From positions 1 through 64,000 of the forward strand of contig JAFZXE010000021.1 of NCBI GenBank assembly GCA_017616895.1: DNA of 64,000 nt, read 5' to 3'. A program made the position numbers and the translations under genes. The notes below the pieces were generated by a model. It was not told where the DNA came from. It made no database searches and worked only from the letters and a program-made list of their open reading frames with translations. Shown here one piece after another: positions 6,715 to 63,988 of the stretch. This DNA is from Bacteroidales bacterium. Its GTDB lineage: Bacteria > Bacteroidota > Bacteroidia > Bacteroidales > P3. Each line of letters begins with the position of its first letter. Position 1 is the stretch's first letter.

Positions 6715-6860
6715 TGCGTTATTGTGGGATTGTGCTATTGTGTTAGTGTGTTGATTGATATGTTAAAAGTGTTGAAAGGTTTAAATGTTTGAAAGGTAAC
6801 TGACTGCTGACTGCTAACCACTGACTGCTGACTGCTAACTACTAAATTCCCCTGTGTGGG
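6715..6860. repeat. Mixed short-word repeats between rlmI and folE
   Basis: Contains TTGCGTTATTGTG octamers, TTTGAAAGG nonamers, a doubled CTGACTGCTGACTGCTAAC run, and a 3' hairpin element (CCTGTGTGGGCATGAACC on the + strand) just after the rlmI stop. No gene seen. Confidence 0.8.
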
Positions 6861-6875
6861 CATGAACCTAAACAC

Positions 6876-8138
6876 TCACTCTACCTCCAGCAACAATCCT
6901 TTCAGGTATTCACCTTCGGGGTGGTAGATGCTTACAGGATGGTCGGGGGCGTGCTGGAGGTGTTTGATAATTCTTACGTTGCGTTTCGCCGTTGCAGCTG
7001 CTGTGAACGCCATTGTCTGGAAGTCAGCCTGACTCACCGCCTGCGAGCAGCTGAAGGTGAAAAGAAGTCCTCCTGGCTTTATCTTCTCAATGGCACGCTG
7101 ATTGATGTTGCGGTAGCCTTTGAGACCGTTCTGCAACGACCTGTGGTTCTTGGCGAATGCTGGCGGGTCGAGTATTATGATGTCGTATTGGTCATCTATG
7201 GTGTCGAGGTATTTGGTGACGTCGGCGACAATGCCGCGATGGCTTGCCTGAGGAAAATTCATCTCCACATGTCTGTTGCACAGTTCGATGGCACGCTTTG
7301 AGATATCTACAGTATCGACTTGGGCTGCGCCACCGCGGAGGGCACCGAGGGTGAAACCGCCGGTGTAGCCGAAACAGTTAAGGATGCGCTTGCCCTCGGC
7401 AAATTGACCCACCATACGGCGGTTGTCGCGCTGGTCGAGGAAGAAGCCTGTCTTCTGCCCTTCGGCGAAGTTAATGATGTAGCGGTTGCCCCACTCTGTC
7501 GCTTCCCATTCATCTAATGTGTGACCTGAGACCCGTGACCTGTGATCAGAAACAGGCTGCTGACAATTAATATCGCCCGTGCGACCAGCACTGGGAGATG
7601 TGATCCAGCCGTTTTCGCAGCCTTTTATTGGCAGGGTTGCTTCGCTCTTGTCATAGACGCCTTTGAGGTCGGGCAACAGTTCGTTCAGCAGATTGGCAAA
7701 GACGGGGAACAGGCGGTGCATACCCACACTGTGGGCCTGCAGCACCACTATCCCGTTATAGTAGTCGGCAATCAAGCCTGGCATGAGGTCGCCTTCTCCA
7801 TTGACAAGTCGGAACATTGTGGTGTCATCCGTACCGCAACGCCCATCCACACCTATCAGCCCAAGTGTCTTGCGATAACTGATTGCGTCACTCAGCCTTG
7901 CACGCCAGAAGCCATCGTCGATCGAACACCCCTCAAACGACAGTATCTTACACACAATGCTGTCCGACTGATAGTGTCCGCAGGCGAGCCACTGTCCGTC
8001 GGCAGAAACCACATCAACCACATCGCCATCTTCAGGTCGCCCTTCGGTCCGCGCGACAGCGCCGGAGAAGAGCCACGGATGCCGACGAAAAATCGACTTT
8101 TCCTTGCCTTTGTGAAGTATCAATTTTGCCGTTGCCAT
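6876..8138 (-). CDS. rlmI: Class I SAM-dependent rRNA methyltransferase (RlmI-like)
   Basis: Predicted 23S rRNA m5C methyltransferase of the PUA-plus-Rossmann type. An N-terminal PUA domain (residues 1-80, with HPWLFSGAV) is followed by the methyltransferase domain: FFLDQRDNRR near residue 232, NCFGYTGGFT (SAM binding) and DPPAFAK. At 420 residues it is about 25-30 longer than usual. The excess is a segment around residues 180-210 encoded by three of the local repeat words, placed between the NGW and EWGNRY motifs. The frame is maintained, so the enzyme is probably functional with a surface loop. The gene has a well-formed promoter at 8215-8244. Confidence 0.88.
   Translation of the reverse strand: MATAKLILHKGKEKSIFRRHPWLFSGAVARTEGRPEDGDVVDVVSADGQWLACGHYQSDSIVCKILSFEGCSIDDGFWRARLSDAISYRKTLGLIGVDGRCGTDDTTMFRLVNGEGDLMPGLIADYYNGIVVLQAHSVGMHRLFPVFANLLNELLPDLKGVYDKSEATLPIKGCENGWITSPSAGRTGDINCQQPVSDHRSRVSGHTLDEWEATEWGNRYIINFAEGQKTGFFLDQRDNRRMVGQFAEGKRILNCFGYTGGFTLGALRGGAAQVDTVDISKRAIELCNRHVEMNFPQASHRGIVADVTKYLDTIDDQYDIIILDPPAFAKNHRSLQNGLKGYRNINQRAIEKIKPGGLLFTFSCSQAVSQADFQTMAFTAAATAKRNVRIIKHLQHAPDHPVSIYHPEGEYLKGLLLEVE
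7515..7596 (-). repeat. Repeat-word insertion inside rlmI
   Basis: Three words met in spacers elsewhere occur here back to back and in frame: a TGACC/TGATC heptamer run (about 7520-7549), GCTGCTGAC, and the hairpin element (sense AGTGCTGGTCGCACGGGC). They encode the extra loop of the methyltransferase. Confidence 0.8.
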
Positions 8139-8214
8139 GGTTGAATGAAGTTTTGTAACGAGTGACCCTTGACCTGAAAGTGCCTGCCGAGTAAATATTA
8201 ATTAAAAACGCGTG

Positions 8215-8244
8215 CAAAAATACTAAAACTGCCGCAATCAGCAA
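8215..8244 (-). promoter_or_regulatory. rlmI promoter
   Basis: On the minus strand TTG (8244-8242), a 19-nt spacer, then TATTTTTG (8222-8215), followed by C: a full match to the Bacteroidetes sigma-A -33/-7 pattern. It lies 77 bp before the rlmI start. Confidence 0.75.
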
Positions 8245-8394
8245 CAATCCACGGCCACAAATTATAAATCTCGGTGATTTTGTAGTATTGCGTTAATGTG
8301 TTATAGAGTGAATTATGAGGTTGATATGCTCGACTGGCTGCCGACTACTAAAAACTGACTATAGACCACCGTTGTGAAAATCGACACTTTAATA
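8245..8394. other. Spacer between divergent rlmI and hppA
   Basis: The 329-bp divergent region holds the two promoters and, between them, one TTGCGTTAATGTG word, GAGTGAATTATG and GACTGGCTGCCGACTAC words. No gene or RNA seen. Confidence 0.6.
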
Positions 8395-8424
8395 TTGTAA
8401 AGGATAATATTTTTAGTAAATTTG
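8395..8424 (+). promoter_or_regulatory. hppA promoter
   Basis: TTG at 8395-8397, 19-nt spacer, TAAATTTG at 8417-8424. This fits the Bacteroidetes promoter consensus and is 43 bp before the hppA start codon. Confidence 0.75.
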
Positions 8425-8467
8425 CGGGCACTTCAAATTCCATAGATAACACACAAACAACTTTATA

Positions 8468-10891: not shown

Positions 10892-10920
10892 GACCCCAAA
10901 CGAAAATTTTCTTCATAAAG

Positions 10921-10954
10921 AAAAAGCCGCCGCGAAAGCGACGGTTTTTTCTTT
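10921..10954 (+). terminator. hppA terminator
   Basis: AAAGCCGCCGCGAAAGCGACGGTTTTTTC: CCG.CGC pairs with GCG.CGG around a GAAA tetraloop with one mismatch, followed by six T. It begins 30 bp after the hppA stop. Confidence 0.85.
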
Positions 10955-11068
10955 TTTGCCTCATACAACGCCGAAAGATATTCTTGCTATGCTCGAACTC
11001 GGTTTTGGGGAAAAGAATCAGGAAAAAAGATCGGTGTCGGAGATGTTCAAGAAAAATATGACAAAGCA

Positions 11069-11123
11069 GGGAGTTAGTTGGGAGTTGGTTGGGAGTTAGT
11101 TGGGAGTTGGTACGGAGTTCCTC
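11069..11123. repeat. 11-bp array, GGGAGTTAGTT type
   Basis: Four perfectly phased 11-bp units (GGGAGTTAGTT, GGGAGTTGGTT, GGGAGTTAGTT, GGGAGTTGGTA) and a partial fifth, CGGAGTTCCTC. Confidence 0.9.
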
Positions 11124-11137
11124 TAATTTTGAATTTC

Positions 11138-16553: not shown

Positions 16554-16554
16554 A

Positions 16555-17238
16555 TTAACCGAGCATTTCTTCCAGTCGGGCAACCATATTCTCGGCACCG
16601 GCGAAGATTTCGCTGATGCGGGTGGCTGCCATATAGGCTGGAGTGGTGATGACCTTGTGCTCGCTGTCGATACAGACGTCGGTGGGGCCGCACTCCTGCG
16701 GTTTGGCACCGAGTTGCTGTGCTGCGAGAGCCGCCTGGTTGTCGGACGCGCCGAGGGTGAGTTCGACACCATAGCGACCCAACACCTTAGCCAGCACCAT
16801 CGGAGCTATGCACATAGCCACCACAGGTTTCTTGGCGCGGTAGGTTTCGAGTATGGCGTCGGCCACGCTGTCGATGACTTCCATACGGGGACCGTCGAAG
16901 GCGAAGGTGGAAAGGTTGCGAGCGGCACCCATTCCGCCGGGGAGAGCCAGACAGTCGTAGTCGGCTGGCGAATATTCGTCGAGCGACTTGATATCGCCGC
17001 GGGCGATGCGTGCCGACTCCACAAAGATATCTCTCTGCTCGGTATCGACCAGGGCGCCCTCTTCGGCGTCTTCGAGGTCTTCGATATCGACATGAGGGAT
17101 AACCTCAAACATGCCCTCGGGGGCGAAACACTGATACTGCCAGCCACGACGGTCGATGGCGAGCATCAAAGAGAGGGACTCCTGCAGCTCGCTACCGTCG
17201 CGATTACCGCAGCCGGAAAGGATTATGGCGATTTTCAT
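16555..17238 (-). CDS. elbB: ElbB-type glyoxalase / isoprenoid biosynthesis protein
   Basis: A DJ-1/PfpI-superfamily protein of 227 residues. MKIAIILSGCGNRDGSELQE is the ElbB N terminus, and the nucleophile-elbow cysteine is in AMCIAPMV near residue 138. The family has weak glyoxalase activity on glyoxal; a link to isoprenoid synthesis is historical. It is followed with a one-base gap by the SUMF1-type gene. Upstream lies a TGTGACC/TGTGATC heptamer array. Confidence 0.9.
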   Translation of the reverse strand: MKIAIILSGCGNRDGSELQESLSLMLAIDRRGWQYQCFAPEGMFEVIPHVDIEDLEDAEEGALVDTEQRDIFVESARIARGDIKSLDEYSPADYDCLALPGGMGAARNLSTFAFDGPRMEVIDSVADAILETYRAKKPVVAMCIAPMVLAKVLGRYGVELTLGASDNQAALAAQQLGAKPQECGPTDVCIDSEHKVITTPAYMAATRISEIFAGAENMVARLEEMLG

Positions 17239-18667: not shown

Positions 18668-18748
18668 CAAATTATTTTTGACGTTTGTATCTTACTCCAC
18701 AAGATTTCATATAATACTGTTTCCTAATCGTCCTGTGCGGACACGCAG

Positions 18749-20186: not shown

Positions 20187-21338
20187 ATGCGAGTAATCAT
20201 ATTAGGTACAGCATGGCCCTATCGGGGAGGATTGGCGGCTTTCAACGAGCGGCTGGCCTACCAGTATCAGACAGAAGGCCATGAGGTAGAGATTATAACC
20301 TTCACTCTTCAATACCCATCGTTTCTATTTCCCGGAAAGTCGCAATACAGCGACGAACCCGCACCCAAAGGGTTGAAGATAACCCGTATGCTCAACGCCG
20401 TCAACCCGTTCAGCTGGCTGAAGACCGGCATGTATATCAAACGGCAGAAGCCCGACCTGCTGATTACCAAGTTCTGGCTTCCCTTTATGGCACCCGCATT
20501 GGGAACGGTAAACCGAGTGGCAAAACATACAGGTATGCAGCGAGTGTCGATTCTCGACAACCTGGTACCACACGAGCATCGTATCGGCGACAAGATGTTC
20601 GCTCGATACTTCGTGGGATCTATCGACGGTATGATAGCCATGAGTCAGTCGGTGTTGGACGATGCCGACATTTTCGACCCGAAGCACCTCAAACCGAGAT
20701 GTCTCTGCATGCACCCACTATATGACCACTACGGAGAGACGATGAGCAAGGAAGATGCATGCAAGATATTGGGCATTAATCCAGATGGACGTTATGCTCT
20801 CTTTTTCGGATTCATACGCAACTACAAAGGACTAGACCTGCTGCTTGAGGCGATGGCTGACGAACGCATCGGACAGATGGGAATGAAACTCATAGTGGCC
20901 GGCGAGTTCTATGGCGATCCGAAGCCTTATATGGAACAGATAGAGCGGCTGGGGATTGGCGACCGCGTGATACTTAAGACCGACTTCATACCCGACAGCG
21001 AGGTGAACCGTTACTTCTGTGCGGCCGACGTGGTGGTGCAGCCATACAAGACGGCGACCCAGAGCGGCGTCACCCAGATAGCCTTCAACTTCGAGAAACC
21101 TATGATTGTTACCAATGTAGGTGGATTACCCGAGATTGTGCCAAACGAGAAAGTGGGATTCGTGGTTGAACCCGATGCCAAGACTATTGCCGATGCGATA
21201 GTGCGGTATTACGAAGAAGGGTGGCAGGACCGATTGACCGAAGGAGTGGAAGAAGAGAAGAAAAAATACCTGTGGGAGAATATGACGAAGGCCGTAGAGG
21301 GATTAGCAGTCAGGTGCATGCCCACACAGGGCGATTAA
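20187..21338 (+). CDS. Family 4 glycosyltransferase
   Basis: GT-B fold enzyme of 383 residues. The N-terminal acceptor domain begins MRVIILGTAWPYRGGLAAFNE, and the C-terminal donor domain has the LFFGFIRNYKGLDLLLEA motif near residue 206 and GGLPEIVPNEKVGFVV near 312, where the EX7E-type glutamates lie. Directly upstream of the heptose genes gmhA-hddC-gmhB, so it probably builds a heptose-containing surface glycan or lipopolysaccharide core; this is inference. The last seven residues (CMPTQGD) come from a copy of the 3' hairpin element, which overlaps the stop codon. Confidence 0.88.
   Translation: MRVIILGTAWPYRGGLAAFNERLAYQYQTEGHEVEIITFTLQYPSFLFPGKSQYSDEPAPKGLKITRMLNAVNPFSWLKTGMYIKRQKPDLLITKFWLPFMAPALGTVNRVAKHTGMQRVSILDNLVPHEHRIGDKMFARYFVGSIDGMIAMSQSVLDDADIFDPKHLKPRCLCMHPLYDHYGETMSKEDACKILGINPDGRYALFFGFIRNYKGLDLLLEAMADERIGQMGMKLIVAGEFYGDPKPYMEQIERLGIGDRVILKTDFIPDSEVNRYFCAADVVVQPYKTATQSGVTQIAFNFEKPMIVTNVGGLPEIVPNEKVGFVVEPDAKTIADAIVRYYEEGWQDRLTEGVEEEKKKYLWENMTKAVEGLAVRCMPTQGD
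21313..21336 (+). repeat. 3' hairpin element overlapping the GT4 stop
   Basis: GGTGCATGCCCACACAGGGC, then GATTAA, in sense orientation. It supplies the last codons and stop of the glycosyltransferase gene. Confidence 0.8.
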
Positions 21339-34035: not shown

Positions 34036-34057
34036 ATTGCCCTGTGCGTGCTCGCAC

Positions 34058-34726
34058 CTAACTATCGTATTCTGTCGGGTCGGGGATGCCGGCTTGGCGG
34101 AAGGCCTCCTTCCGCTCGGTGCAGGTGCCGCAGACACCACAGTGTCGTTCGTGACCGCAGTAGCAGGAGTAAGTGTCGGCAAAATCGATACCCAGTGCAG
34201 CACCACGCCTCACTATGTCGCTCTTCGAAATATTTGTATAAGGGGCCACTACCCGTACATTGATATATGTGCCCGACTGAGTGGCAGCGTCGATAGCATT
34301 GATAAACTCAGGCCTGCAATCGGGATATATGGCGTGGTCGCCGCCGTGATTGGCTATGAGCACCTGTGTCAAGCCACGACTTTCGGCCAAACCACATGCA
34401 ATGGACAGCATGATGCCGTTGCGGAACGGTACGACGGTAGAACGCATGTTGGCATCATCATACCCGCCGACAGGCACCGCATCGGCACCGTCGAGCAGCG
34501 ACGAGTGGAAATATTTTTTTATGAAGTCGAGCGGAATGATGATATGCTCTATGCCGAGACGCTCACAATGGCGCTTTGCACAGGCGATTTCGCGAAGGTT
34601 GTGGTTGCTGCCGTAGTCGAACGTGACAGCGAGCGCGATGCGGTCACGATTCTCATACAGCAAGGTAGTGGAGTCGAGTCCTCCTGATAGAATGATAAGA
34701 GAGTTTTTCCCTGTTACGGATTTCAT
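34058..34726 (-). CDS. queC: 7-cyano-7-deazaguanine synthase
   Basis: ATP-dependent synthesis of preQ0 from CDG and ammonia. 222 residues; the PP-loop SGGLDST is at residues 14-20 and the zinc site is C-x8-C-x2-C-x2-C in CYCGHERHCGVCGTC near 190. First of the que genes on this strand; the leader region is repeat-filled and I see no preQ1 riboswitch fold. Confidence 0.95.
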   Translation of the reverse strand: MKSVTGKNSLIILSGGLDSTTLLYENRDRIALAVTFDYGSNHNLREIACAKRHCERLGIEHIIIPLDFIKKYFHSSLLDGADAVPVGGYDDANMRSTVVPFRNGIMLSIACGLAESRGLTQVLIANHGGDHAIYPDCRPEFINAIDAATQSGTYINVRVVAPYTNISKSDIVRRGAALGIDFADTYSCYCGHERHCGVCGTCTERKEAFRQAGIPDPTEYDS

Positions 34727-34774
34727 ATTCTTGTTTTGTTAAAGGGGGTTGTCAAGAAGACCCCTGTATTATTG

Positions 34775-34963
34775 CGTTATTGCGTTAATGCGTTAGTGTG
34801 TTATTGCGTTAGTGCGTTAATGTATTAATGTGTTATTGCGTTTGTAGCTGACTACTGTTAACTTGTGACCTTGAACCATTCAAACCCTTTAAATCTTTTA
34901 AACCCTTTGAACCTTGAACCAACAATCTGCCCTGTCCGGGCACGGACCCTGTGCGGGCACGCA
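34775..34963. repeat. TTGCGTTA octamers and double hairpin element
   Basis: About ten TGCGTTAT/TGCGTTAA octamers, CCTTTAAATC-type words, and two adjacent 3' hairpin elements after the lpxA stop. The second hairpin reads GTCCG-TGCC-CGGAC: relative to GTGCG/CGCAC both sides of one pair have changed. Confidence 0.88.
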
Positions 34964-35749
34964 CTATTCCTTACGCATATACGAATAGCCTTTCATCAAG
35001 CCCGTATTGGCTCCTCCGATGAAACTGAGAATCACCTTAGCCTCGTCGGTATGACCATACTGTTCTTTGATGGCTTCAACAGCGTGACTTACGGTGAGCC
35101 CTTTCTGGAAGAGGTAGCGGTAGATGTCGCTGATGATGTTTATCGACTCCTGAGAGAATCCTCGACGAGAGAGCCCTAGTGTGTTGACTCCTGCGTACGA
35201 GATGGGGTAGCGGGCTGCCTTGACAAACGGCGGTATATCCTTATCGACCAAGGCTCCTCCCTGAGTGATGGCATGTGAGCCGATATGCACAAACTGCAGT
35301 ATGGCCGTCTTGCCACCGAGGATGACGTAGTCACCGACAATGATATGGCCGGCCAAGGTGGCGTTGTTGGCAAACACACAGTTGTTGCCCACCACACAGT
35401 CGTGTGCGATGTGCACGTAAGCCATTATGAGGTTGTTGTCGCCCACAACGGTCTTACCCGAGGCTGCCGTGCCGCGGTTGATGGTGCAGCATTCGCGGAT
35501 GACGTTGTTGTCGCCAATCTCGACGGTACTATATTCGCCGGCAAACTTCAAGTCCTGCGGAATAGCAGAAATCACCGCACCGGGGAATATCTTGCAGTTC
35601 TTGCCGATGCGTGCGCCGGGGAATATGGTAACATTGGGGCCAATCCAAGTCCCGTCGCCAATGACCACATCGTCATATATAGTGGTGAAATTTTCTATCG
35701 TAACATCCTTGCCTATCTTGGCATTGGGGTTGATGTCGTTGAGAGTCAT
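34964..35749 (-). CDS. lpxA: UDP-N-acetylglucosamine acyltransferase
   Basis: First enzyme of lipid A synthesis. 261-residue left-handed parallel beta-helix of hexapeptide repeats (for example IGDGTWIGPNVTIFPGARIG), the catalytic His in AYVHIAHDC near residue 122 and a helical C terminus. Starts within the lpxC stop (ATGA overlap). Confidence 0.96.
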   Translation of the reverse strand: MTLNDINPNAKIGKDVTIENFTTIYDDVVIGDGTWIGPNVTIFPGARIGKNCKIFPGAVISAIPQDLKFAGEYSTVEIGDNNVIRECCTINRGTAASGKTVVGDNNLIMAYVHIAHDCVVGNNCVFANNATLAGHIIVGDYVILGGKTAILQFVHIGSHAITQGGALVDKDIPPFVKAARYPISYAGVNTLGLSRRGFSQESINIISDIYRYLFQKGLTVSHAVEAIKEQYGHTDEAKVILSFIGGANTGLMKGYSYMRKE

Positions 35750-36689: not shown

Positions 36690-36892
36690 GGTTGTAATTG
36701 CGTTATTGCGTTATTGTGTTATTGTGTTAGTGCGTTAGTGCGTTAGTGTGTTATTGCGTTATTGCGTTATTGTGTTATTGCGTTACTGTGTTATTGCGTT
36801 ATTGCGTTATTGTATATTGCGTTATTGTGTTATTGTGTTAGTGCGTTATTGTGTTAGTGTCTGATTGCTAATTGCCCTGTGCGGGCACGCAC
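36690..36892. repeat. Long TTGCGTTA/TTGTGTTA octamer array
   Basis: About twenty octamers of the GCGTTATT, GTGTTATT and GCGTTAGT kind in 150 bp upstream of lpxC, ending in a 3' hairpin element right after the stop codon of the LysM gene. No gene. Confidence 0.9.
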
Positions 36893-38641
36893 CTAGTACC
36901 TCCCCGACAATGGCACGAATCGTAAATTGCTGAGTTTATAGAACACAGCCGACTCGTTGACGAACCCGTGACCTCTGTCGCTCTGCGAGAAAAACATCGG
37001 ACACAGCATTCCTGACACACTCGACTGGTTGGGTGAGCGCCAGAATTCCGTCCCGCGGTTCTTCAATCCATACACAAAATAGATGATGATATCGTTTGCC
37101 ATCGGCGCGTATGCACCTATCGGATCGACCTTGAAATGCTCGTTGAAGGCATCGATGAAATCTTTCTTCGACGGGTCGTTGTAATCCAACTCCGTGTTCA
37201 CCGTCATATAATTTGCCTGCTGCAGCTGTGCGAAATCGATGTCGCCGTATTTAAGGATATAGTTGTCAAATGACACCAGCGTCACCCCTGACGACTTGGC
37301 TGCCGCCATTCTGTTGAGCAGAGTGCTCACCTGTATATGGTTTTTGTCACGGTTCTGGTCGTAGATATTAAGCACATAGCAGTTGGGTGTCTTCTTCATG
37401 GTTGCCACCAGTTTCGAGTTGGCCGACCAATCGAAAAAAGTGTAGGCAATATCGCCGCGGGCTTTAAGTTTTTCTTCGACCAAACCTCTCACACGCGCCT
37501 CGTTCTTCGAGCCAGAAGTGATAATATACAGGTGCGGTTTGCCCGACATGCCGCCGATAATCTTCAGCAACTCGTTCACCTCGCCATCGACCGACGACAT
37601 ACACTTGAACACATACGGATTTCCTTCCACTATCTCATCGCGTTCGGCCAGCGGGTTTATGATGAATATCTGGTTCTTCTGCGCCCAGTCGGCAGCATAT
37701 TCAAACTGCTCTTTAGGCAGCAGGGCTATGATGAAGTCGCTTCGTGTCACATCGTGGGTGTTTATCGCTGTCTCTATATCCATACGGGTCTTGCCTGTGA
37801 TATCGACAACATTTAGTACCACCTTGCAGTTCATTCTTTCAAGTCGTTCCATTCCCACCAACAGTCCCTCGTAGAACTGTATGTACTCGAAAGCGCCGTA
37901 ACTTTTCTTTCCGCGCTGGTCAACATCGAACTTGGTGGTAGAGATCTTGTCCAAATCGCCCAGATGCAGCGGCATCAACAGCGACACATGAATCCGACCC
38001 GGCTCAATCAGCGGCGAAACCACAGCAGGCTCCGCAGGTGCTTTCGGCGTATATGCCGCCGGCTGACGTCCGCCATTACTGCCCGTGCGGCTAGCACCAG
38101 GTTGCTGACTGTTAACTACCGACTGCTGACTGTTAGATTGCTCTGTGCGAGCACGCACCTGACTGTCATTATCGCCCGTGCGGCCAGCACCCGGCACTTT
38201 TATCGTCTGCCCGGCCTTAAGTCCCATCGTCCTCAATTCGGGATTCAGCTCGTTCAGGTCCTCGATGCTCACGTTGTATTTCTTCGAAAGGCTGTACAGC
38301 GTCTGACCGGGCTCAACCACGATGAACTGATATTCCCGCTTGGTTTCTTGCTGACCGCCAGATTGCTCTGTGCGAGCACGCACTTGACTGTTAACCACAC
38401 AGTCGGTGCAAGGAATCCACACCGTGTCATCTACCGACAGGTGGTGTATATCCGACTTCAGTATCGCCTCGTGCTCTTTCACACCGTAGAGTTTGGTGAT
38501 TGAATACACCGTCTGGCCGGGTTGCACGATATGTATGTAGCATTTCTTGCCGTTGTGCATCCCCACGGTGTTCGACTTCACCACCTGGGCGCTCAACGAC
38601 ACCGACAAACTAACCAAGAATAAAAACAATAATCTTTTCAA
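36893..38641 (-). CDS. LysM-domain protein with periplasmic-binding-protein fold
   Basis: About 583 residues from the TTG at 38641, which begins a signal peptide (KRLLFLFLVSLSVSLSA-Q). The GTG further upstream only adds translated repeat. Two LysM modules (YIHIVQPGQTVYSITKLYG and FIVVEPGQTLYSLSKKYN) bind peptidoglycan; the rest is a type I periplasmic-binding fold (IHVSLLMPLHLGD to the end). The linkers before and after the second LysM hold hairpin and heptamer repeat words read as SQVRARTEQS, GAGRTGDND and GASRTGSNGG. It is 52 bp downstream of guaA on the same strand. Confidence 0.85.
   Translation of the reverse strand: MKRLLFLFLVSLSVSLSAQVVKSNTVGMHNGKKCYIHIVQPGQTVYSITKLYGVKEHEAILKSDIHHLSVDDTVWIPCTDCVVNSQVRARTEQSGGQQETKREYQFIVVEPGQTLYSLSKKYNVSIEDLNELNPELRTMGLKAGQTIKVPGAGRTGDNDSQVRARTEQSNSQQSVVNSQQPGASRTGSNGGRQPAAYTPKAPAEPAVVSPLIEPGRIHVSLLMPLHLGDLDKISTTKFDVDQRGKKSYGAFEYIQFYEGLLVGMERLERMNCKVVLNVVDITGKTRMDIETAINTHDVTRSDFIIALLPKEQFEYAADWAQKNQIFIINPLAERDEIVEGNPYVFKCMSSVDGEVNELLKIIGGMSGKPHLYIITSGSKNEARVRGLVEEKLKARGDIAYTFFDWSANSKLVATMKKTPNCYVLNIYDQNRDKNHIQVSTLLNRMAAAKSSGVTLVSFDNYILKYGDIDFAQLQQANYMTVNTELDYNDPSKKDFIDAFNEHFKVDPIGAYAPMANDIIIYFVYGLKNRGTEFWRSPNQSSVSGMLCPMFFSQSDRGHGFVNESAVFYKLSNLRFVPLSGRY
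38085..38200 (-). repeat. Repeat-word linker in the LysM gene
   Basis: Three hairpin elements (sense GGTGCTAGCCGCACGGGC, GTGCGTGCTCGCACAGAGC and GGTGCTGGCCGCACGGGCG) with AACAGTCAGCAGTC heptamers between them, all in frame. Confidence 0.85.
38362..38390 (-). repeat. Hairpin element in first LysM linker
   Basis: Sense AAGTGCGTGCTCGCACAGAGC, followed by AATCTGG; encodes QVRARTEQSG between the two LysM modules. Confidence 0.8.
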
Positions 38642-49963: not shown

Positions 49964-49984
49964 GTGCGTGCCCGCACAGGGCAA
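49964..49984 (+). repeat. 3' hairpin element after fba
   Basis: GTGCGTGCCCGCACAGGGC, AAC, starting at the base after the TAA stop: GTGCG and CGCAC pair across TGCC. Confidence 0.88.
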
Positions 49985-50026: not shown

Positions 50027-52975
50027 GTGAGCGACTGTATTGAAATACACGGTGCGCGGTGCAATAACCTGAAGAACATCGATGTTGACATACCAACAGG
50101 CAAGTTGGTGGTCATTACAGGTTTGAGCGGCAGCGGCAAATCGAGCCTGGCCTTCGACACACTTTACGCCGAAGGCCAGCGCCGATATGTGGAGAGCCTA
50201 AGCAGCTATGCACGCCAGTTTATGGGACGCATGGCGAAGCCCGAGGTGGATTACATCAAAAACATCTCGCCCGCCATCGCCATAGAGCAACGTGTGAACA
50301 GCAGCAATCCTCGCTCGACGGTGGGCACCAGCACCGAGATATACGAATATCTCAAACTGCTGTTCGCCCGCATCGGACGCACCTTCTCCCCTATTTCGGG
50401 TGTGGAGGTAAAGCGCCACTCGGTGAGCGACGTGACCGACTACATCAGCGCCCTTGCCGACGGCACACGGGTGATGATCTACGCCCCGCTGCAGGTCACA
50501 AAAGAGCGTCCGCTCGACGAACAACTGAAGATACTGCACCAAGAGGGCTTCATGCGTGTCTCAATCGCAGGCACGATAGTGAAGATTGAGGATTACTTGC
50601 GCGTGCCAGCACAGGGCGATAATAGCGACGACGTGATGTTGCTGGTGGACCGCATAGAGATACACCACGAAGACGACGGGCAGACGGCCCGCATAGCCGA
50701 GTCGGTGCAGACAGCCTTCTTCGAAGGACGGGGCGAGTGTGTGGTTAGCAGTGAGTGCGTGCCAGCACAGGGCGATAATAAGCCGACGGTGGCGAGGTTT
50801 TCGAACCGATTTGAAGCCGACGGCATCACCTTCGAGAAACCCAACCCGAACTTCTTCAGCTTCAACAACCCCTACGGAGCCTGTCCTACCTGTCAGGGTT
50901 ATGGCAGCGTGATAGGTATCGACGAACATCTGGTGATACCCAACCCCAGCTTGTCGGTGTATGACAACGCTGTGGTGTGCTGGCGCGGGGAGAAGATGCA
51001 GGAGTGGAAGACCTTCCTCATCAAGCAATCGACCAAGATAGGATTCCCGATACACACCCCCTACCGCGAGCTGACTGAAGAGCAGCGCGACATACTGTGG
51101 CACGGAAAGGGCAACTGGGAGGGCATAGACGGATTCTTCAACTGGGTTGACAGCCAGAACTACAAGATACAATACCGAGTGCTAGCGGCGAGATACAGAG
51201 GCAAGACCACCTGTCCCGACTGTCACGGAAGCCGCCTGCGCAAAGACGCCGACTACGTGAAGGTGGGCGGCAAGAGCATCACCGAGCTGACCAGAATGCA
51301 GGTGAGCGACCTACAGCAGTGGCTGGAGGCGTTGGAACTCAACGACCACGAGCGCGAAGTGTCGAAACGCATAATGGTGGAGCTTCGCAACCGCGTGGGT
51401 TACCTGATGGAGGTGGGACTCGGATATCTAACTCTGAGCCGACTGTCGAACACCCTTTCGGGCGGCGAGTCGCAGCGAATCAACCTTTCGACCTCGCTGG
51501 GCAGTTCGCTGGTGGGGTCGATGTACATACTCGACGAACCGTCGATAGGCCTCCACAGCCGCGACACCGAGCAGCTTATAGGTGTGTTGAAACACCTGCG
51601 TGATTTAGGCAACACCGTGATTGTGGTGGAGCACGACGAGGACATCATCCGTGCAGCCGACTACATCATCGACATCGGGCCATTGGCTGGAAGGCTGGGC
51701 GGCGAGGTGGTGTTTGCCGGACATTGCGAAAACGAGGTATGGAAGCAAGGCCTCTCGAAAAAGAAAGTCACAGCTTCAAACATAAAGAAATCCCTCACAC
51801 TGCAGTATCTCACCGGGCAACTCACCATACCAGTACCCGAAAGCCGACGCCGCTGGCGCGACCGAATATGCATCCACGGGGCATACTGCAACAACCTCAA
51901 GGATGTCGATATAGATTTCCCGCTCAACGTATTGACCGTCGTCACCGGTGTGAGCGGATCGGGCAAGACGAGCCTTGTGAAGCAGGTGCTCTACGACGTG
52001 CTGAAGAAACGCTTTGAGGACAACCCCGAATACACAGGACAGTGTGTGTCGCTCACGGGCGACGTGTCGCGTATCTGCGGAGTCGAGCTGGTTGACCAGA
52101 ACCCCATCGGACGCTCCACACGCAGCAACCCCGCCACATATATGAAAGCCTACGACGAGATACGCCAACTATATGCCTCGCAACCGTTGGCGAAAACACG
52201 CGGATACAAAGCAGGCTTCTTCTCGTTCAACACCGAAGGCGGACGCTGCGAGACATGCGAGGGAGAAGGCTACGTAACAATCGGCATGCAGTTCATGTCG
52301 GATCTGCACCTTGTATGCGAAGAGTGCCACGGAACCCGCTTCAAAGAAGAGACGCTCGAAGTGCTTTTCCGAGGCAAGAACGTGAGTGAGGTGCTCGATA
52401 TGACCATCGACCAGGCAGTCGAGTTCTTCTCTATCACCGACGAAGAGGAATGCGCCACCGACAACAAGAAAGAAATTCCCGACGCCGCCCCGCGAAAATC
52501 CGACCCCAAACAGGCGACGGCACAATCGCTCAAGGCCATACTCGCCCGACTCAAACCCCTGCAGGACGTAGGACTCGGATACCTGAAGATGGGACAGAGC
52601 AGCAGCTCGCTATCAGGCGGCGAGGCACAACGAGTCAAGCTTGCCTCCTACCTCATCAAAGGCTCTGACGAACGTCCACGGCTTTTCATTTTCGACGAAC
52701 CCTCCACAGGCCTGCATTTCCACGATATCAAGAAGCTGCTGCAGTCGTTCAACACCCTTATTGCCAACGGACACAGCATAATAGTCATCGAACACCACCC
52801 CGATATCATAAAGACCGCCGACTGGGTGATAGACCTCGGTCCTGAAGGAGGCGACCAAGGCGGTAACGTGGTGTTTGCAGGCACGCCAGAGGATTTGGTG
52901 AAATGCAAACAGTCATACACAGCGAAGCATGTGAAGTTAGCAGACAAGTGCGTGCCCGCACAGGGCGATAAATAA
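50027..52975 (+). CDS. uvrA: Excinuclease ABC subunit A
   Basis: Damage recognition in nucleotide-excision repair. 982 residues from a GTG that gives IEIHGARCNNLKNIDVDIP. Walker A sites at about 33 (GLSGSGKSS) and 641 (GVSGSGKTS), signatures LSGGESQRI near 478 and LSGGEAQRV near 862, and zinc-finger cysteines (CPTCQG, CPDCHGSR, CETCEGEG, CEECHGTR). It is longer than typical because of in-frame repeat words: VPAQGDNSDD (residue about 192), ECVPAQGDNKP (about 244) and a C-terminal KCVPAQGDK. The first two fall in variable loops of the insertion domain, so function is probably kept. Confidence 0.95.
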   Translation: MSDCIEIHGARCNNLKNIDVDIPTGKLVVITGLSGSGKSSLAFDTLYAEGQRRYVESLSSYARQFMGRMAKPEVDYIKNISPAIAIEQRVNSSNPRSTVGTSTEIYEYLKLLFARIGRTFSPISGVEVKRHSVSDVTDYISALADGTRVMIYAPLQVTKERPLDEQLKILHQEGFMRVSIAGTIVKIEDYLRVPAQGDNSDDVMLLVDRIEIHHEDDGQTARIAESVQTAFFEGRGECVVSSECVPAQGDNKPTVARFSNRFEADGITFEKPNPNFFSFNNPYGACPTCQGYGSVIGIDEHLVIPNPSLSVYDNAVVCWRGEKMQEWKTFLIKQSTKIGFPIHTPYRELTEEQRDILWHGKGNWEGIDGFFNWVDSQNYKIQYRVLAARYRGKTTCPDCHGSRLRKDADYVKVGGKSITELTRMQVSDLQQWLEALELNDHEREVSKRIMVELRNRVGYLMEVGLGYLTLSRLSNTLSGGESQRINLSTSLGSSLVGSMYILDEPSIGLHSRDTEQLIGVLKHLRDLGNTVIVVEHDEDIIRAADYIIDIGPLAGRLGGEVVFAGHCENEVWKQGLSKKKVTASNIKKSLTLQYLTGQLTIPVPESRRRWRDRICIHGAYCNNLKDVDIDFPLNVLTVVTGVSGSGKTSLVKQVLYDVLKKRFEDNPEYTGQCVSLTGDVSRICGVELVDQNPIGRSTRSNPATYMKAYDEIRQLYASQPLAKTRGYKAGFFSFNTEGGRCETCEGEGYVTIGMQFMSDLHLVCEECHGTRFKEETLEVLFRGKNVSEVLDMTIDQAVEFFSITDEEECATDNKKEIPDAAPRKSDPKQATAQSLKAILARLKPLQDVGLGYLKMGQSSSSLSGGEAQRVKLASYLIKGSDERPRLFIFDEPSTGLHFHDIKKLLQSFNTLIANGHSIIVIEHHPDIIKTADWVIDLGPEGGDQGGNVVFAGTPEDLVKCKQSYTAKHVKLADKCVPAQGDK
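50598..50623 (+). repeat. Hairpin element in uvrA, first
   Basis: GCGCGTGCCAGCACAGGGCG then ATAATAG, sense orientation, read in frame as RVPAQGDNS. Confidence 0.85.
50755..50780 (+). repeat. Hairpin element in uvrA, second
   Basis: GTGCGTGCCAGCACAGGGCG then ATAATA, sense, in frame as CVPAQGDN; nearly identical to the copy 157 bp upstream. Confidence 0.87.
52948..52970 (+). repeat. Hairpin element forming the uvrA 3' end
   Basis: GTGCGTGCCCGCACAGGGCG then ATAAATAA: the element encodes the last residues and supplies the stop. Confidence 0.85.
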
Positions 52976-58970: not shown

Positions 58971-58982
58971 ACGAAACTATCT

Positions 58983-60287
58983 TCATTCTTGGTATTTGCA
59001 CTTGAAGCGCTTCTCGTATTCCTCAATCAGTTCCGGTCGGAAGTCGGGGTGTGCGATGTGGATGAGGTCTTCGGCGCGGTGCTGCAGCGTACGCCCCTTG
59101 AGGCGTGCTATGCCGTATTCGGTTGCGATATAATCGACGTCGTTGCGTGAGGTGCTGACGGCGGCTCCTTCGGTGAGGAACGGTTTGATTCTCGAAATCT
59201 TGCCGCCTGCGGCGGTGCTGCGCATGGCTATGATGGCCTTCCCTTCGCGTGCCAGCGACGCGCCTCGAATGAAATCGACCTGCCCGCCTATGCCGCTATA
59301 CTGCCTTATGCCGATGGTCTCGCTCGCCACCTGTCCCTGCAAATCAACCTCCAGACACGAGTTTATCGAAATCATTCGGTCGTTTTTGGCGATGATCAGC
59401 GGGTTGTTCACATAATCCACGGGGTGAAACTCCACATCTTGGTTCCCGTCAACAAACTCATACAGCTCGCGGCTGCCCATGATGAACGTCACCACCACCT
59501 TCCCCTTATGCAAGGTCTTGCGACTGCCGTTGATGTTGCCCCGTTTCACCAGGTCTATGATTCCGTTAGATATCATCTCGCTGTGTATGCCCAGGTCGTT
59601 CTTGTCGCCCAGCGCTGCGAGCACGGCGTCGGGTATGGCTCCTATGCCCAGCTGCAGCGTCGAGCCGTCGGCTATTAGCGAAGCACAGTTTCTACCTATC
59701 GCCATCTCGACATCTCCTGCCGACGGCAGCAGCAGCTCCTGCAGGTGGTAGGCGCAGGGTATGATGTGGTCCATCTGCGAAATGTGTACCAGCGTGTCGC
59801 CGTAGGTGAACGGCATAAGTTCGTTGGTTTCGATAATCACCGTCTTGGCTGCACGAATCGCAGCTTTGGCATAGTCGCAGCTCACTCCCAGCGAGCAGTA
59901 GCCCTCCTCGTTGGGCGGTGTGGCTTGAAACACGGCGACGTCGCATGGGATGTCGGTTCCGATCATCGCCGGCACATCTTTGAAGTAGGCCGGGAAGAAA
60001 TCGCCCTCGCGGCGCTCGACGACATCTCTCGAGTTGGCCGATAGGAAGTTGCTCACATGTCTGAAGTGGCCGAAACAGCGTGGCTTGTAGCATGGGTTGT
60101 CTCCCAACGTGGTCATGTGGAATATCAACACGTCGTTGTAGTCCTCACAGTGGTTGGCTAATTCCTGCTGTATGACTCTCGGAGCCGCCGCCGCATGTCC
60201 CATCACGACGCATTGTCCGTCGTGGATGTCTTTGATTGCTTTTGCCGGTGTCGATACTTTTCTTTTGTACTCTTCTTTCCAGTTCAT
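58983..60287 (-). CDS. Acetyl-CoA hydrolase/CoA-transferase family enzyme
   Basis: 434 residues. Members move CoA between short acyl groups (for example 4-hydroxybutyrate, butyrate, succinate or propionate with acetate). The first half has VMGHAAAAPRVI and FHMTTLGDNPCY; the second has LQLGIGAIPDAVLAALGDKNDLGIHSEM with the catalytic Glu near residue 235, and GIGGQVDFIRGA. The exact acyl partners cannot be fixed by eye. The start at 60287 is preferred to 60317 because the family begins with WKEEYKRK. A cobalamin riboswitch is the leader, which would fit the B12-dependent succinate-to-propionate route. Confidence 0.88.
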   Translation of the reverse strand: MNWKEEYKRKVSTPAKAIKDIHDGQCVVMGHAAAAPRVIQQELANHCEDYNDVLIFHMTTLGDNPCYKPRCFGHFRHVSNFLSANSRDVVERREGDFFPAYFKDVPAMIGTDIPCDVAVFQATPPNEEGYCSLGVSCDYAKAAIRAAKTVIIETNELMPFTYGDTLVHISQMDHIIPCAYHLQELLLPSAGDVEMAIGRNCASLIADGSTLQLGIGAIPDAVLAALGDKNDLGIHSEMISNGIIDLVKRGNINGSRKTLHKGKVVVTFIMGSRELYEFVDGNQDVEFHPVDYVNNPLIIAKNDRMISINSCLEVDLQGQVASETIGIRQYSGIGGQVDFIRGASLAREGKAIIAMRSTAAGGKISRIKPFLTEGAAVSTSRNDVDYIATEYGIARLKGRTLQHRAEDLIHIAHPDFRPELIEEYEKRFKCKYQE

Positions 60288-60476
60288 AGTATATAATGTT
60301 TTATTGTTCGTCAGCATTTTGTCTATCCTATCGACAATGCCAGCGAAAAAACATCACACACGAACCGATTTTCCTTTTTCAGCTTACAGAAAACATACAA
60401 CAAAAGTATGAACTCTGAACCATTATTCTATTTTCAACAACCGCCTTTTAGACGCGAAAGCATTGCCGAATCATCC

Positions 60477-60635
60477 GAGGCAGGTCTCCTGGCTCATCAC
60501 CTCTTGGCCGACACCTTCTCAGGGACTTTCCCCCAATGGCATGTTATCGACCCGTCACCGGCGAATTACAGTTGCGCGACAGCTCACGATTTCCACGTGA
60601 TTCCCTCTTGGCGACCCCATTACAGAGCCGACCTC
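60477..60635 (-). promoter_or_regulatory. Cobalamin riboswitch
   Basis: On the minus strand all conserved blocks appear in order: GGGAATCACGTGGAAATC, GCTGTCGCGCAACTGTAA, GCCATTG, GGGGAAAGTCCC, AGAAGG and the B12 box GAGCCAGGAGACCTGCC. Closing pairs GAGGTCGG / CCTGCCTC delimit it. It lies 190 nt before the CoA-transferase start in the same direction, and no other gene intervenes. Confidence 0.93.
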
Positions 60636-60708
60636 AGCGATTTTTAGTTATTCTAAAGAACTGTTGCTGTGGAGATTCTACATAAAGACATGTTCCCCGG
60701 CAGCGACG

Positions 60709-60716
60709 CAAATATA
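60709..60716 (-). promoter_or_regulatory. -7 element for the riboswitch transcript
   Basis: TATATTTG followed by C on the minus strand, about 75 nt before the riboswitch core. Divergent to the OmpA-gene promoter. Confidence 0.55.
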
Positions 60717-60737
60717 CACTTTTTACAATAAAAAACG

Positions 60738-60745
60738 TATTTTTG
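60738..60745 (+). promoter_or_regulatory. -7 element of the OmpA-family gene
   Basis: TATTTTTG followed by C, 26 bp before the start codon at 60771. Confidence 0.55.
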
Positions 60746-60770
60746 CAAATTGAATCAGACCGAGATAACA

Positions 60771-63524
60771 ATGAAAAGACTGACGATATTCGCGATATTT
60801 ACGGTTGCGGTTTTTGCTGTCGGAGCCCAGACTTCCAACCAACCAGGATGGAAGGAGCTGCAAAACAGGAACTACTCTAAAGCGGAGAAGAAGGCGGAAA
60901 AGGCCTACAAAGAGGACTCGACAGATGTGATGAACTGCTATATGCTGGGGCTTGTGTGTGGAGAATCGAAGAACCCTCACCGCAACAACGAACGTGCATA
61001 CGGCGCTCTGCTACGTGCAAAGAGCCTGCTGGAAGGACTCAGCAACTTGAAACGCAGCCTGCTGCGACGCGACGGACTTACGATTGAAAATGTGGAGCAG
61101 AAACTGGCGGAGGTGACGGCGCTGGCCCTGTCGGACGCCCAGGCGGTTAACACAAAGGGGGCCTACAACCATTTCAGGGAACACTATGCCCAGACGATGA
61201 CCAAAGAACTGGATTATGCAGCGAGAGAGGGTATTAGCGGGATTGACTACCAAATTGCTGAAAACGAGAACAGCGTCGAGGGCTACGAGCATTTCCTGGC
61301 CCTGCACCCCGAGTCGTCGAAAGCCATGGAAGCAGAACAAAGGATGCAGGCGCTGGCCTACTCAAAAGCCAAAAGCATCAACACCCTGACAGCTTACGAA
61401 CGCTATGTGGCCGACTACCCCGACGCCGAAGAGGCCGAGGAGGCCGAGATGCAGGTCTATAGCATGATGTACTACCGCGCTCTTGCACAAAACACGGAAG
61501 AGGCATTCCGCCGCTATGCCGACGACTATCCGGAAAGCCCTTACGCCTCAGCAGCCAGACGCAAAGCCAGCGCCATAAACTTCAGCAAAGAGACCGACCC
61601 CAAGGATTGGAAAAGTTTCAAACGCTACATAGAACGACATCCTGAAAACCGAACGAAAAACAAAGAGGCTAAACGGATTATAGCCGAAATATCGATAGAG
61701 ACAAAAAACGCCGACGGGCTTGAATGGAGCCTGCTCAAATGCGACACATCTCTGCGCGACACCATCATACGGGCAATACACGACCTGTATGTCAACAGCG
61801 ACCGCATATCGGAGTTTGAATCGACATACGAACGCACCGTGCCCGCCGACCTGAAAAAGAAAGACCAAGATGCCCTAGACGCGATATTGGACATACAGAC
61901 AAACGACCGCACCAGTGTCTCCAAAGCCATCAAAGCCATCGCCCCCTACCGCATCGCATACGACCTGCTGCTCTATATGATAGAACACGATGCCCGTCGC
62001 GGAAAGTGGGAATATGTCAAAAAAACTGTTGACGAGTTTGAGGAAATCTTTGCCGGCAATGAGGACTATGCATCCCTGAGAGCCATCGTCTCTGCTCCCG
62101 ACATGAAGATAACCCGCCGAGTGTTGGACGGAACCGTCAACAGCACTATCGGCGACGAATACTCGCCTGTGGTGAGCGCCGACGAGCAGACACTATACTT
62201 CGCGGGGAAAAACCGAACTGGCAACATCGGTGGCGAAGACATATTCATGTCAACCAAGAACGCTGCCGGACAATGGCGCCGGGCCTACCCCGTTCCAGGC
62301 TTGAACACAGTCGTTCACAACGAGTCGCCGTCGTCAATCTCACGCGACGGACAGACAATCATCATATTCCAGAACGGGAAACTGCTTATATCCCAAAAGG
62401 ACGAACTGGGCTGGGGTATGCCGAAACCCTTACCCAAAGAGCTGAAACTCGGCAACTGGCAATCTGATGCCATGATAACTGCCGACGGACGGGCCATACT
62501 CTTCGCCGCCCGAACCAAAACCGAGCACGAAGTCGCACCATCCATGAACATCTACGTCTCGACCCTCGACGACAAAGGCAATTGGAGCGAGCCCATCGGT
62601 CTTGGTCCCGTGATCAACACCTTCGGCAACGACCGCGCACCATTCCTCCATGCCGACATGAAAACACTCTATTTCAGTTCAAACCGTCACTCGAACATTG
62701 GCGGATTCGACGTGTTCAAATCCACTCGACTCTCGGACGACAGCTGGACGGAATGGAGCGAACCCGTAAACCTCGGCAAAGAGATAAACACAGTGGATGA
62801 CGACTGCTGGTTCTCGGTAAGTGTTGACGGCACCACCGCATATATGTCAACAAAACAAGGCGAGTCTCAAGACATCTGCACAATCGAGCTGCCCGAAGCC
62901 ATGAGACCCTGCACCGTCGCCACCCTCACCGGACGTGTCTCCGACACAAAAGGCAACCCTCTCTCCGTCGAAATACGATGGAACGACCTCAATACCGGAA
63001 ATTCCTGCGGCCGATACACCACCAACCCCTCTGACGGCAGCTTCTTCATAACACTTCCTCTCGGCAAACAATACGAATACTACATTGCCGGCAAAGATTA
63101 CTATCCTTCCTCAGGCAGCATAGACCTTCGCACCACCACCCTCGCTAAAAAAGAGCACACCATATTGGTGACAGCCACAAACCGGCAAATGAGCGAGGGC
63201 GCAAGCAACCTGCCCCTTAACGGTATTTTCTTCACCAATTCAAAAGCCACTCTCACGCCCCTTTCCAGAGCCGTCATTAACCGCGTGGCAAATACCGTAA
63301 AACAAATCGAACGCCCAATCACCATCACGGCTTATACCGAAGCCCAAGACCTCAACAAATCAACGAACCTCGACCTTCAGCGAGTCCAAGCCGTGAGAGA
63401 ATCGCTCATTAAGGCAGGTTGCAACGCCGACAGCATCACCGTCAACGTACAGGCATACGAGAACGGCAAAAGCCTCACAACCCGCCAGCATAAGCACAAA
63501 ACCTTGATGACGGTCAACTTCTGA
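60771..63524 (+). CDS. OmpA-family protein with TPR-like and PD40 repeats
   Basis: 917 residues from the ATG at 60771. Signal peptide ending VGA-Q; residues 30-430 are helical tetratricopeptide-like repeats with 'FLALHPESSKAMEAEQRM'-type units; 430-690 a PD40/WD40-like propeller (EYSPVVSADEQTLYFAG, GGEDIFMST, RAPFLHADMKTLYFSSNRHSNIGGFDVFKS); 700-790 a carboxypeptidase-regulatory-like domain; the last 110 residues resemble an OmpA C terminus (NGIFFTNSKATLTPLSRAVINRVANTV), weakly conserved. Probably anchors the outer membrane to peptidoglycan or part of a Bacteroidota secretion apparatus (PorE-like), the latter uncertain. Confidence 0.82.
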   Translation: MKRLTIFAIFTVAVFAVGAQTSNQPGWKELQNRNYSKAEKKAEKAYKEDSTDVMNCYMLGLVCGESKNPHRNNERAYGALLRAKSLLEGLSNLKRSLLRRDGLTIENVEQKLAEVTALALSDAQAVNTKGAYNHFREHYAQTMTKELDYAAREGISGIDYQIAENENSVEGYEHFLALHPESSKAMEAEQRMQALAYSKAKSINTLTAYERYVADYPDAEEAEEAEMQVYSMMYYRALAQNTEEAFRRYADDYPESPYASAARRKASAINFSKETDPKDWKSFKRYIERHPENRTKNKEAKRIIAEISIETKNADGLEWSLLKCDTSLRDTIIRAIHDLYVNSDRISEFESTYERTVPADLKKKDQDALDAILDIQTNDRTSVSKAIKAIAPYRIAYDLLLYMIEHDARRGKWEYVKKTVDEFEEIFAGNEDYASLRAIVSAPDMKITRRVLDGTVNSTIGDEYSPVVSADEQTLYFAGKNRTGNIGGEDIFMSTKNAAGQWRRAYPVPGLNTVVHNESPSSISRDGQTIIIFQNGKLLISQKDELGWGMPKPLPKELKLGNWQSDAMITADGRAILFAARTKTEHEVAPSMNIYVSTLDDKGNWSEPIGLGPVINTFGNDRAPFLHADMKTLYFSSNRHSNIGGFDVFKSTRLSDDSWTEWSEPVNLGKEINTVDDDCWFSVSVDGTTAYMSTKQGESQDICTIELPEAMRPCTVATLTGRVSDTKGNPLSVEIRWNDLNTGNSCGRYTTNPSDGSFFITLPLGKQYEYYIAGKDYYPSSGSIDLRTTTLAKKEHTILVTATNRQMSEGASNLPLNGIFFTNSKATLTPLSRAVINRVANTVKQIERPITITAYTEAQDLNKSTNLDLQRVQAVRESLIKAGCNADSITVNVQAYENGKSLTTRQHKHKTLMTVNF

Positions 63525-63784
63525 TACGTTGATACGTTAAGTTGTGAAGTTGTTAAGTTGTGTAATGACAAGACCACTTACAACTTAAAACTTACAGCTT
63601 ACAGCTTAAAACTTAAAACTTACAGCTTAAAACTTACAGCTTATACGTTGATACGTTGATATGTTGATATGATAAGCTGTTAAGGAGTGAAGATGTTAAG
63701 ATTTCAATTTTCACATCTTCACAACTACACAACTTCACATCTTCAACCGCCCTGTGCGGGCACGCACCCCTGTCGGGCACGCAC
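63525..63784. repeat. Long mixed-word spacer at a convergent junction
   Basis: GTTGTGAAGTTGTTAAG octamers, six or more CTTACAGCTTAAAA words, GTTGATACGTTGATATG octamers, CTTCACAACTACAC words, then two 3' hairpin elements directly after the pspC stop. No gene. Confidence 0.88.
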
Positions 63785-63988
63785 CTACCTTCCCTCTTCC
63801 GGGGCGGCGATCCAGACAATCAGATAGGCCCAGAAGCCTATGCTGCCGCATATCAGCGCCACAAGAAATCCGATGCGCACGACAGTTGGGTCGATGTTCA
63901 AATATTTGGCGATACCGCCGCATACGCCAGCGATACGACGATCCGTAACGCTGCGAGTCAATTTACGATAACTATTATTTTCTTCCAT
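63785..63988 (-). CDS. pspC: PspC domain protein
   Basis: 67 residues: SVTDRRIAGVCGGIAKYLNIDPTVVRIGFLVA and the following hydrophobic segment GSIGFWAYLIVWIAAP are the PspC domain. Small inner-membrane protein of envelope-stress type. The stop codon is followed at once by the hairpin element (sense). Confidence 0.92.
   Translation of the reverse strand: MEENNSYRKLTRSVTDRRIAGVCGGIAKYLNIDPTVVRIGFLVALICGSIGFWAYLIVWIAAPEEGR

Follow-up and report, generated by a model that had tools for sequence, protein, structure and literature searches.

A 19-letter palindromic repeat at gene ends in a Bacteroidales genome resembles small dispersed DNA repeats more than an established signal for message ends

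Few mobile sequences are as poorly explained as small palindromic repeats that lack a known transposase. The small dispersed repeats (SDRs) of cyanobacteria, the subject of work by Elhai et al. in 2008 that PMC3116915 cites, are reportedly very small, mobile and linked to short tandem repeats. REP and REPIN elements of the GTAG and CGTC types are palindromes of 20–40 bp that lie mostly downstream of coding regions, near the 3′ ends of genes, with some intragenic copies; CGTC REPs have stems of 8–9 bp and occur mostly in head-to-head dimers (PMC3733652). Rickettsia palindromic elements (RPEs) are small and mobile, and conserved genes contain them as in-frame fusions (PMC2229807); yeast mitochondrial GC clusters are short, GC-rich hairpins that are sporadic, AG-flanked and made of merging units (PMC4478555). 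Literature searches with the 14-base core of the repeat analysed here as a word returned no paper, and searches for similar repeats turned up no description of the element in the literature collection covered. In this element an almost complete bias of orientation in one species goes together with stop-codon contact, with copies read in frame within housekeeping enzymes and with an identical 19-mer in two phyla.

The window, that is, the whole 64,000-nucleotide stretch of Bacteroidales DNA that was analysed, contains eight exact GTGCG-N4-CGCAC sites against 0.04 expected. The longer pattern GTGCGN4CGCACAGGGC (GTGCGNNNNCGCACAGGGC), allowing up to 3 mismatches, has 19 matches against 1.85 expected. 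An earlier note, made from the letters of the window, had counted about 17 copies; 13 of those listed are among our 19 matches, at positions within a few bases, four (6852, 7574, 38085, 38172) are divergent or of a second subtype, and the first pspC unit has a shortened stem. The other six of the 19 are three likely chance matches (830, 7325, 9940) and three reverse readings of palindromic copies (38145, 38370, 52943). The copies are as follows.

6849–6867, minus strand: degenerate copy GTTCATGCCCACACAGGGGA, 4 mismatches, 8 nt past the stop of an rlmI-like gene
7575–7591, minus: second subtype GTGCTGGTCGCACGGGC within the rlmI-like gene
18730–18748, minus: copy whose stem B is GTCC/GGAC, 0 nt past the sufS stop
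21314–21332, plus: copy at the 3′ end of a glycosyltransferase gene and read in its frame; the ORF stops 6 nt on
34039–34057, minus: copy GTGCGAGCACGCACAGGGC, 0 nt past the queC stop
34929–34947, minus: second tandem unit past lpxA, GTCCG/CGGAC stem
34946–34964, minus: first tandem unit past lpxA, sharing one base with the TAG stop
36874–36892, minus: exact copy, 0 nt past the stop of a LysM gene
38081–38097, minus: second-subtype-like copy GTGCTAGCCGCACGGGC within the LysM gene
38140–38158, minus: in-frame copy in the LysM gene, stem B GCTC/GAGC
38174–38190, minus: second-subtype copy within the LysM gene
38365–38383, minus: in-frame copy in the LysM gene, stem B GCTC/GAGC
49964–49982, plus: exact copy, 0 nt past the fba stop
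50599–50617, plus: in-frame uvrA copy within a variable loop
50755–50773, plus: in-frame uvrA copy within a second variable loop, missing from 29 other aligned sequences
52948–52966, plus: exact copy whose translation forms the uvrA C-terminus; the ORF stops 9 nt on
63749–63767, minus: exact copy, second unit past a short gene (pspC in the earlier note)
63768–63784, minus: first unit, with shortened stem, GTGCGTGCCCGACAGGG, directly past TAG

The best NCBIfam match of the rlmI-like gene is RlmI, below its cut-off. The short gene before 63749 received no call from our codon-usage script, and pspC rests on the reading of the earlier note and on the TAG before the first unit. Placement just past stop codons, as claimed there, holds at sufS, queC, fba and others, but the copies given as following uvrA and the glycosyltransferase gene are read in frame.

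The core of the element is GTGCG-TGCC-CGCAC-A-GGGC followed by R-A-T-T-A (3′ flank consensus over 107 copies); the hairpin core has 19 letters, and the repeat as a whole measures about 19–24 bp. Stem A pairs positions 1–5 with 10–14 and stem B positions 6–10 with 16–20, and the two are mutually exclusive. An H-type pseudoknot of both could be drawn on paper but was rejected: one linking base would have to cross four pairs, which looks sterically poor, and A and B are therefore treated as probable alternatives. Stem A occurs as GTGCG/CGCAC, GTCCG/CGGAC, CTCCG/CGGAG and GTCG/CGAC, and stem B as GCCC/GGGC, GCTC/GAGC and GTCC/GGAC. The second subtype, GTGCTGGYCGCACGGGC, has similar flanks and is mostly followed by GATAA-like sequence; it or a close relative accounts for the window copies at 7575–7591, 38081–38097 and 38174–38190 and occurs elsewhere in the genome at C5:60142 and C22:84753. 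Tandem units run head-to-tail on the same strand, by eye usually with a GTGCG-type unit first and a GTCCG- or GTCG-type unit second.

The window's own genome (G000; 2,613,366 bases in 31 contigs, a draft that is 88% complete) has 58 exact and 30 one-mismatch matches to GTGCGN4CGCACAGGG and none to the reversed control. These 88 near-identical copies of less than 30 bp at unrelated loci place the element in a broad SDR-like class. Orientation was scored on 107 copies (up to 3 mismatches) forming 90 clusters in the window and in stretches of DNA totalling 265,238 bases with it; the stretches were picked around matches, and the count covers match-bearing regions, not more divergent copies elsewhere. 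Ten further copies were scored after this main set, one chance match (C25:100916) being left out. Genes were called with our own codon-usage script, and two calls were corrected by reading frames.

The genome-wide scan of orientation and position that the earlier note had proposed gave a non-random result for both. Taking the 90 main-set clusters and the 10 further ones together, 96 of 100 are sense to the gene that they follow or occupy. In the main set, 64 are intergenic behind a same-strand gene and 22 lie in sense within a called gene; two others point outward from a divergent gene start, one is antisense to an ORF without Pfam support, and for one the upstream gene falls outside the DNA examined. 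The 10 further copies are all sense, three of them within genes. More than half of the intergenic clusters (39/64) start at 0 or −1 nt from the stop codon, and 52/64 within 12 nt; for seven, the same-strand gene is 61 to 2144 nt distant. Fifty-three of the main-set 90 lie between co-directional genes. The repeat and its orientation bias are real and striking.

The element is abundant in few species. A model search of 120 genomes of the genus (E ≤ 0.01, with filters that lose weak matches) gave 73 matches for the own genome, 72 for G014, 30 for G078 and 0–5 for each of the others. Matching coordinates tie G014 to the RUG12008 records, both G078 and G061 to Tb.RUG.96, and both G148 and G064 to a reindeer record; RUG is presumably a rumen label in record names. 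In G034, with two model matches, two GTCCG-type units lie close together (L219:1501–1550, minus strand). At three gene ends, orthologous on both sides, the element is present in one species and the site is empty in another. The gene pair at C24:147216 abuts in G014 (TAA-ATG) and is split by the element and a tract in the own genome; at window position 16555 the upstream gene is orthologous to that at an occupied end, and the next gene differs. Because sites filled in one sister species are empty in another, comparing them offers a way to test the route of copying. We read the element, with a probability of about 0.5, as a non-autonomous dispersed palindromic repeat that has recently multiplied in a few related Bacteroidales through copying at the DNA level, its orientation being set by flanking sequence and by what genes tolerate.

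Evidence on orientation comes from G014. The earlier note had every copy reading in the direction of its gene, which stands for the window (at 63749, with respect to the gene proposed in that note) but does not hold generally: of the 32 clusters found at 23 loci in G014, 11 are antisense to the neighbouring or containing gene, and nine of these 11 have an exact core. Three clear ones stand ahead of start codons: by 2 nt at a gene that has no Pfam family but begins like a signal peptide, by 26 nt at purE and by 41 nt at a deaminase gene. Of the two in-gene clusters of G014, one is a degenerate antisense copy within mutL. Among the 11, L082:1214 (without an exact core) may be a partial copy read backwards, and L056 and L085 share a duplicated stretch. 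At the G078 loci, eight of nine clusters are sense, and the ninth is a palindromic copy read in reverse. For the gene next to them, such antisense copies of G014 cannot serve as elements of the message 3′ end.

The flanks, too, favour a repeat that spreads at the DNA level. A YRR triplet precedes 34 of 49 clusters that are not at a stop, against a background of 12.6%, with CAG (15) and TAG (6) the commonest; stop codons themselves fit T-R-R. Against this, the 5′ flank differs between species, being YAG in the own genome and often NTG in G014. By eye, the element is associated with short tandem-repeat tracts, and G exceeds C in the 40 nt on its 3′ side in 51 of 67 intergenic clusters of the own genome (mean skew 0.34). 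In G014 the same is true of 10/11 antisense clusters (mean skew 0.42) and 14/19 sense clusters (0.34; 19 of the 21 sense clusters were used). Since the G-rich 3′ flank accompanies both orientations in G014, the local DNA strand can account for orientation. Spacers free of the hairpin have an outward G skew of 0.175 from stops and 0.449 from starts in the own genome, and of 0.272 from starts in G014. Against a strand set by the flanks, the skew outward from stops in G014 is −0.009, and 5/19 sense and 1/11 antisense clusters have no G-rich 3′ flank.

Spacers of the own genome are polar low-complexity modules, with G-rich repeats past stops and C-rich ones before starts; in a convergent pair (window 63525–64096) each gene has its own sense tail. 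A fixed left and ragged right end of the copied unit was considered and dropped, as sharing confined to the downstream side vanished once pairs with non-coding DNA on both sides were compared (120 pairs: at least 10 shared upstream in one, at least 10 downstream in two).

Under DNA-level copying, the most likely mode, for instance by template switching in replication or recombination between repeats, each event would place GTGCG...AGGGC-RATTA immediately behind a triplet that ends in a purine (in the own genome, YRR), often beside a G-rich low-complexity tract. Stop codons would be YRR sites at which insertion is harmless, open frames in the element would allow copies in protein loops and C-termini, and orientation would depend chiefly on which strand flanks the site at a gene edge and on gene tolerance rather than on the transcript. 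Exact stop contact (39/64) counts against this reading, since it seems stronger than YRR preference alone would obviously give; together with the sense-only in-gene copies that have no visible tract, at least eight in number, it is not fully explained. No donor event was seen, and no enzyme for such copying emerged from searches that covered two families, RVT_1 and PF01797.

The polarity could instead reflect a functional RNA at cistron ends, in which the exclusive hairpins A (GUGCG/CGCAC) and B (UGCCC/GGGCR), sitting at the stop codon, would stabilise the upstream message, terminate transcription or change fold as the ribosome terminates. Similar action has been proposed for intercistronic REPs. 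The 96/100 sense clusters and the frequent position between co-directional genes agree with this, as do three G014 copies followed by runs of at least five T (L042:1395, L060:285, L067:7606) and two-sided stem changes. In an alignment of 43 chosen distinct rows (24-mers, mostly from 60 of 75 shown in one set with a few from another, tandem first units excluded), stem A has seven cells with two-sided changes, a number reached in 0/500 shuffles, and stem B four (5/500) over three pairs (13/500). The number of A pairs concerned, two, is ordinary (108/500), however, and covariation is weaker on 68 unselected distinct 20-mers with up to 4 mismatches, where A has 7 double changes (shuffle mean 2.3, maximum 8) and B 3 (mean 1.4, maximum 5). 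Loop bases T6, G7 and C8 and spacer A15 are conserved at 90% or more, like most stem bases, as expected from recent copying.

The GTCCG/CGGAC swap that the earlier note reported by lpxA is present (34929), and C-G at pair 3–12 recurs in 15 of 200 non-redundant copies, all carriers pooled. As an argument for selection on the hairpin, the use made of it there, it is weakened: template switching in replication can reportedly also create paired stem changes (PMC8794818). Paired stem changes and sense orientation alone do not prove RNA function. The consensus 3′ flank, RATTA over 107 copies, has no T run, unlike that of an intrinsic terminator, and other window genes end, by eye, in ordinary T-run hairpins; a ribosome-coupled terminator is disfavoured by the antisense copies and by the same lack of a T run. 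No Rfam 15 family scored above its gathering threshold at the copies in the window and at 10 Oscillospiraceae loci, and elsewhere in those DNAs the only matches were a riboswitch and tRNAs. A cobalamin riboswitch lies at window 60462–60651 (minus strand, 102.7 bits), and a PreQ1 riboswitch match below threshold (22.2 bits, gathering 39) at 34725–34770 (minus) at the queC start. With antisense copies 2 nt from a start codon and in mutL, copies inside coding genes, and large numbers in just three of 120 genus genomes, we consider a general role of the element as an RNA at cistron ends unlikely, although an RNA role for some copies is possible.

Copies inside genes bear on a second RNA-based route. 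In-gene clusters are sense in 25 of 26 cases (22 main-set, three further), the exception being the one antisense to the unsupported ORF; at least eight sense copies have, by eye, no strand-fixing tract alongside. The ORF ends within 10 nt past the element in 8 of the 22 main-set in-gene clusters. All three frames are used (VRARTGQ, CVPAQG, ACPHRA), and in-frame hosts include uvrA, lpd, coaBC, prmC, dapF, ddl, anmK, the LysM gene and an MMPL gene. RelE-like cleavage acts at UAG and CAG codons; as an explanation it was dropped in view of the use of three frames. The two internal uvrA copies lie in loops whose length varies among 30 sequences, and coaBC has a two-unit copy in a variable linker. 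In lpd, a copy is common to the own genome (GCVPAQGN) and G148 (GCVSAQGN), and in 12 other species the corresponding stretch, G-V or G-F plus three residues, is shorter by two codons. The copy thus exceeds the native stretch by just 6 nt, a better fit to templated replacement than to clean insertion. The metG genes of G002, G010 and Bacteroides congonensis contain the exact 19-mer and that of G138 a version with one mismatch, length being unchanged; these in-frame 19-mers (L050:1944, L080:3884, L090 on the minus strand, L218:1501) are in species otherwise without many copies. An origin of the element in metG was rejected: metG of the own genome differs, and chance and peptide similarity may explain the matches.

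The near-exclusive sense orientation within genes, free of tracts in the cases noted, and copies that start 1 nt past tRNA genes at three places in Oscillospiraceae are what RNA-linked or transcription-coupled spread would produce, the element entering transcripts or transcribed DNA in sense and then being fixed in the genome. Searches for reverse transcriptase (RVT_1) found no match in the own genome, at 88% completeness, and matches in 15 of 41 genus genomes, including one in G014, where 11/32 clusters are antisense, among them one (degenerate) of the two in genes. We regard this route as very unlikely. The suggestion of the earlier note, an element acting as RNA at message 3′ ends or spreading by an RNA-linked route, is thus partly supported by polarity and position, and weakened by the antisense G014 copies, the G-rich flanks, the YRR preference and the lack of RVT_1 and Y1_Tnp matches in the own genome.

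A RAYT/Y1 transposase recognising the hairpin and moving the element in trans would fit a small palindrome with a one-sided tail. A CGTC-like foot tag is seen in many Oscillospiraceae copies, where the opposite strand reads GCGTC-T-GCCC-TGTGC-GGGC, but not in the listed Bacteroidales copies. The transposase family PF01797 is absent from the own genome (88% complete) and from the incomplete genomes G014, G061, G062, G063 and G067; it is present in 3 of 15 genomes searched (G001, G003 and the poor carrier G064). The tandem units run head-to-tail, as against the mostly head-to-head CGTC REP dimers with 8–9 bp stems (PMC3733652). We judge such movement very unlikely.

The exact 19-mer was found, taking one genome per species, in 62 stretches, with titles of Bacteroidales/Bacteroidetes and of Oscillospiraceae/Ruminococcus/Ruminococcaceae/Clostridia/Clostridiales, plus four scattered single records; three further matches are those in metG of Bacteroides congonensis and two congeners. 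Carrier records in both phyla are largely rumen-derived (by titles). Thirteen genomes behind such loci have 1 to 22 matches each (up to 2 mismatches), and in the family of one Oscillospiraceae carrier 7 of 297 genomes have a match. In Oscillospiraceae, AGACGC...GCGCTG usually comes after the core, and folding of the alignment consensus gives a 10-bp stem with GTGCG. Of 31 clusters there, at least 5 lie 0–1 nt past a stop (L034, L043, L071, L089, L092); orientation is mixed, 24/31 agreeing with the upstream or containing gene, and one of the other seven is a tRNA case. At L052, L059 and L076 the element stands behind a copy of the gene's first ~30 nt, with a similar start repeated downstream. 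Occurrence in Oscillospiraceae rests on several independent records, with bin contamination possible. Identical cores in two phyla would need horizontal transfer, and viral contigs had no exact match to the element. A bolder reading, which we hold to be decidedly unlikely, would make it a new mobile element of 19 bp with two competing hairpins, guided to gene edges (stops, tRNA 3′ ends, start-codon edges), that has crossed between Bacteroidota and Bacillota without a recognised transposase or reverse transcriptase.

On this evidence the element has more in common with small dispersed DNA repeats, of a non-autonomous kind copied at the DNA level, than with an established message-end signal; it probably lacks a dedicated function, and a function for some copies is possible. 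Cyanobacterial SDRs are likewise very small and mobile and go with short tandem repeats; they differ in sequence and host, and the present element adds a strong polarity at gene edges and a core that recurs in two phyla. The short GC-rich hairpins of yeast mitochondria, sporadic, AG-flanked and with merged units (PMC4478555), are similar in form, but ours are in bacterial chromosomes and come without demonstrated target duplication. RPEs also have in-frame copies in conserved genes (PMC2229807), whereas the present element is much shorter, uses all three frames and lies mainly at gene ends. REP and REPIN elements share with it the small palindrome near gene 3′ ends with some copies inside genes (PMC3733652), and the element is set apart from them by rich carriers without a Y1 transposase, by the lack of head-to-head pairing, by a 5-bp stem and by a near-complete orientation bias in the own genome.
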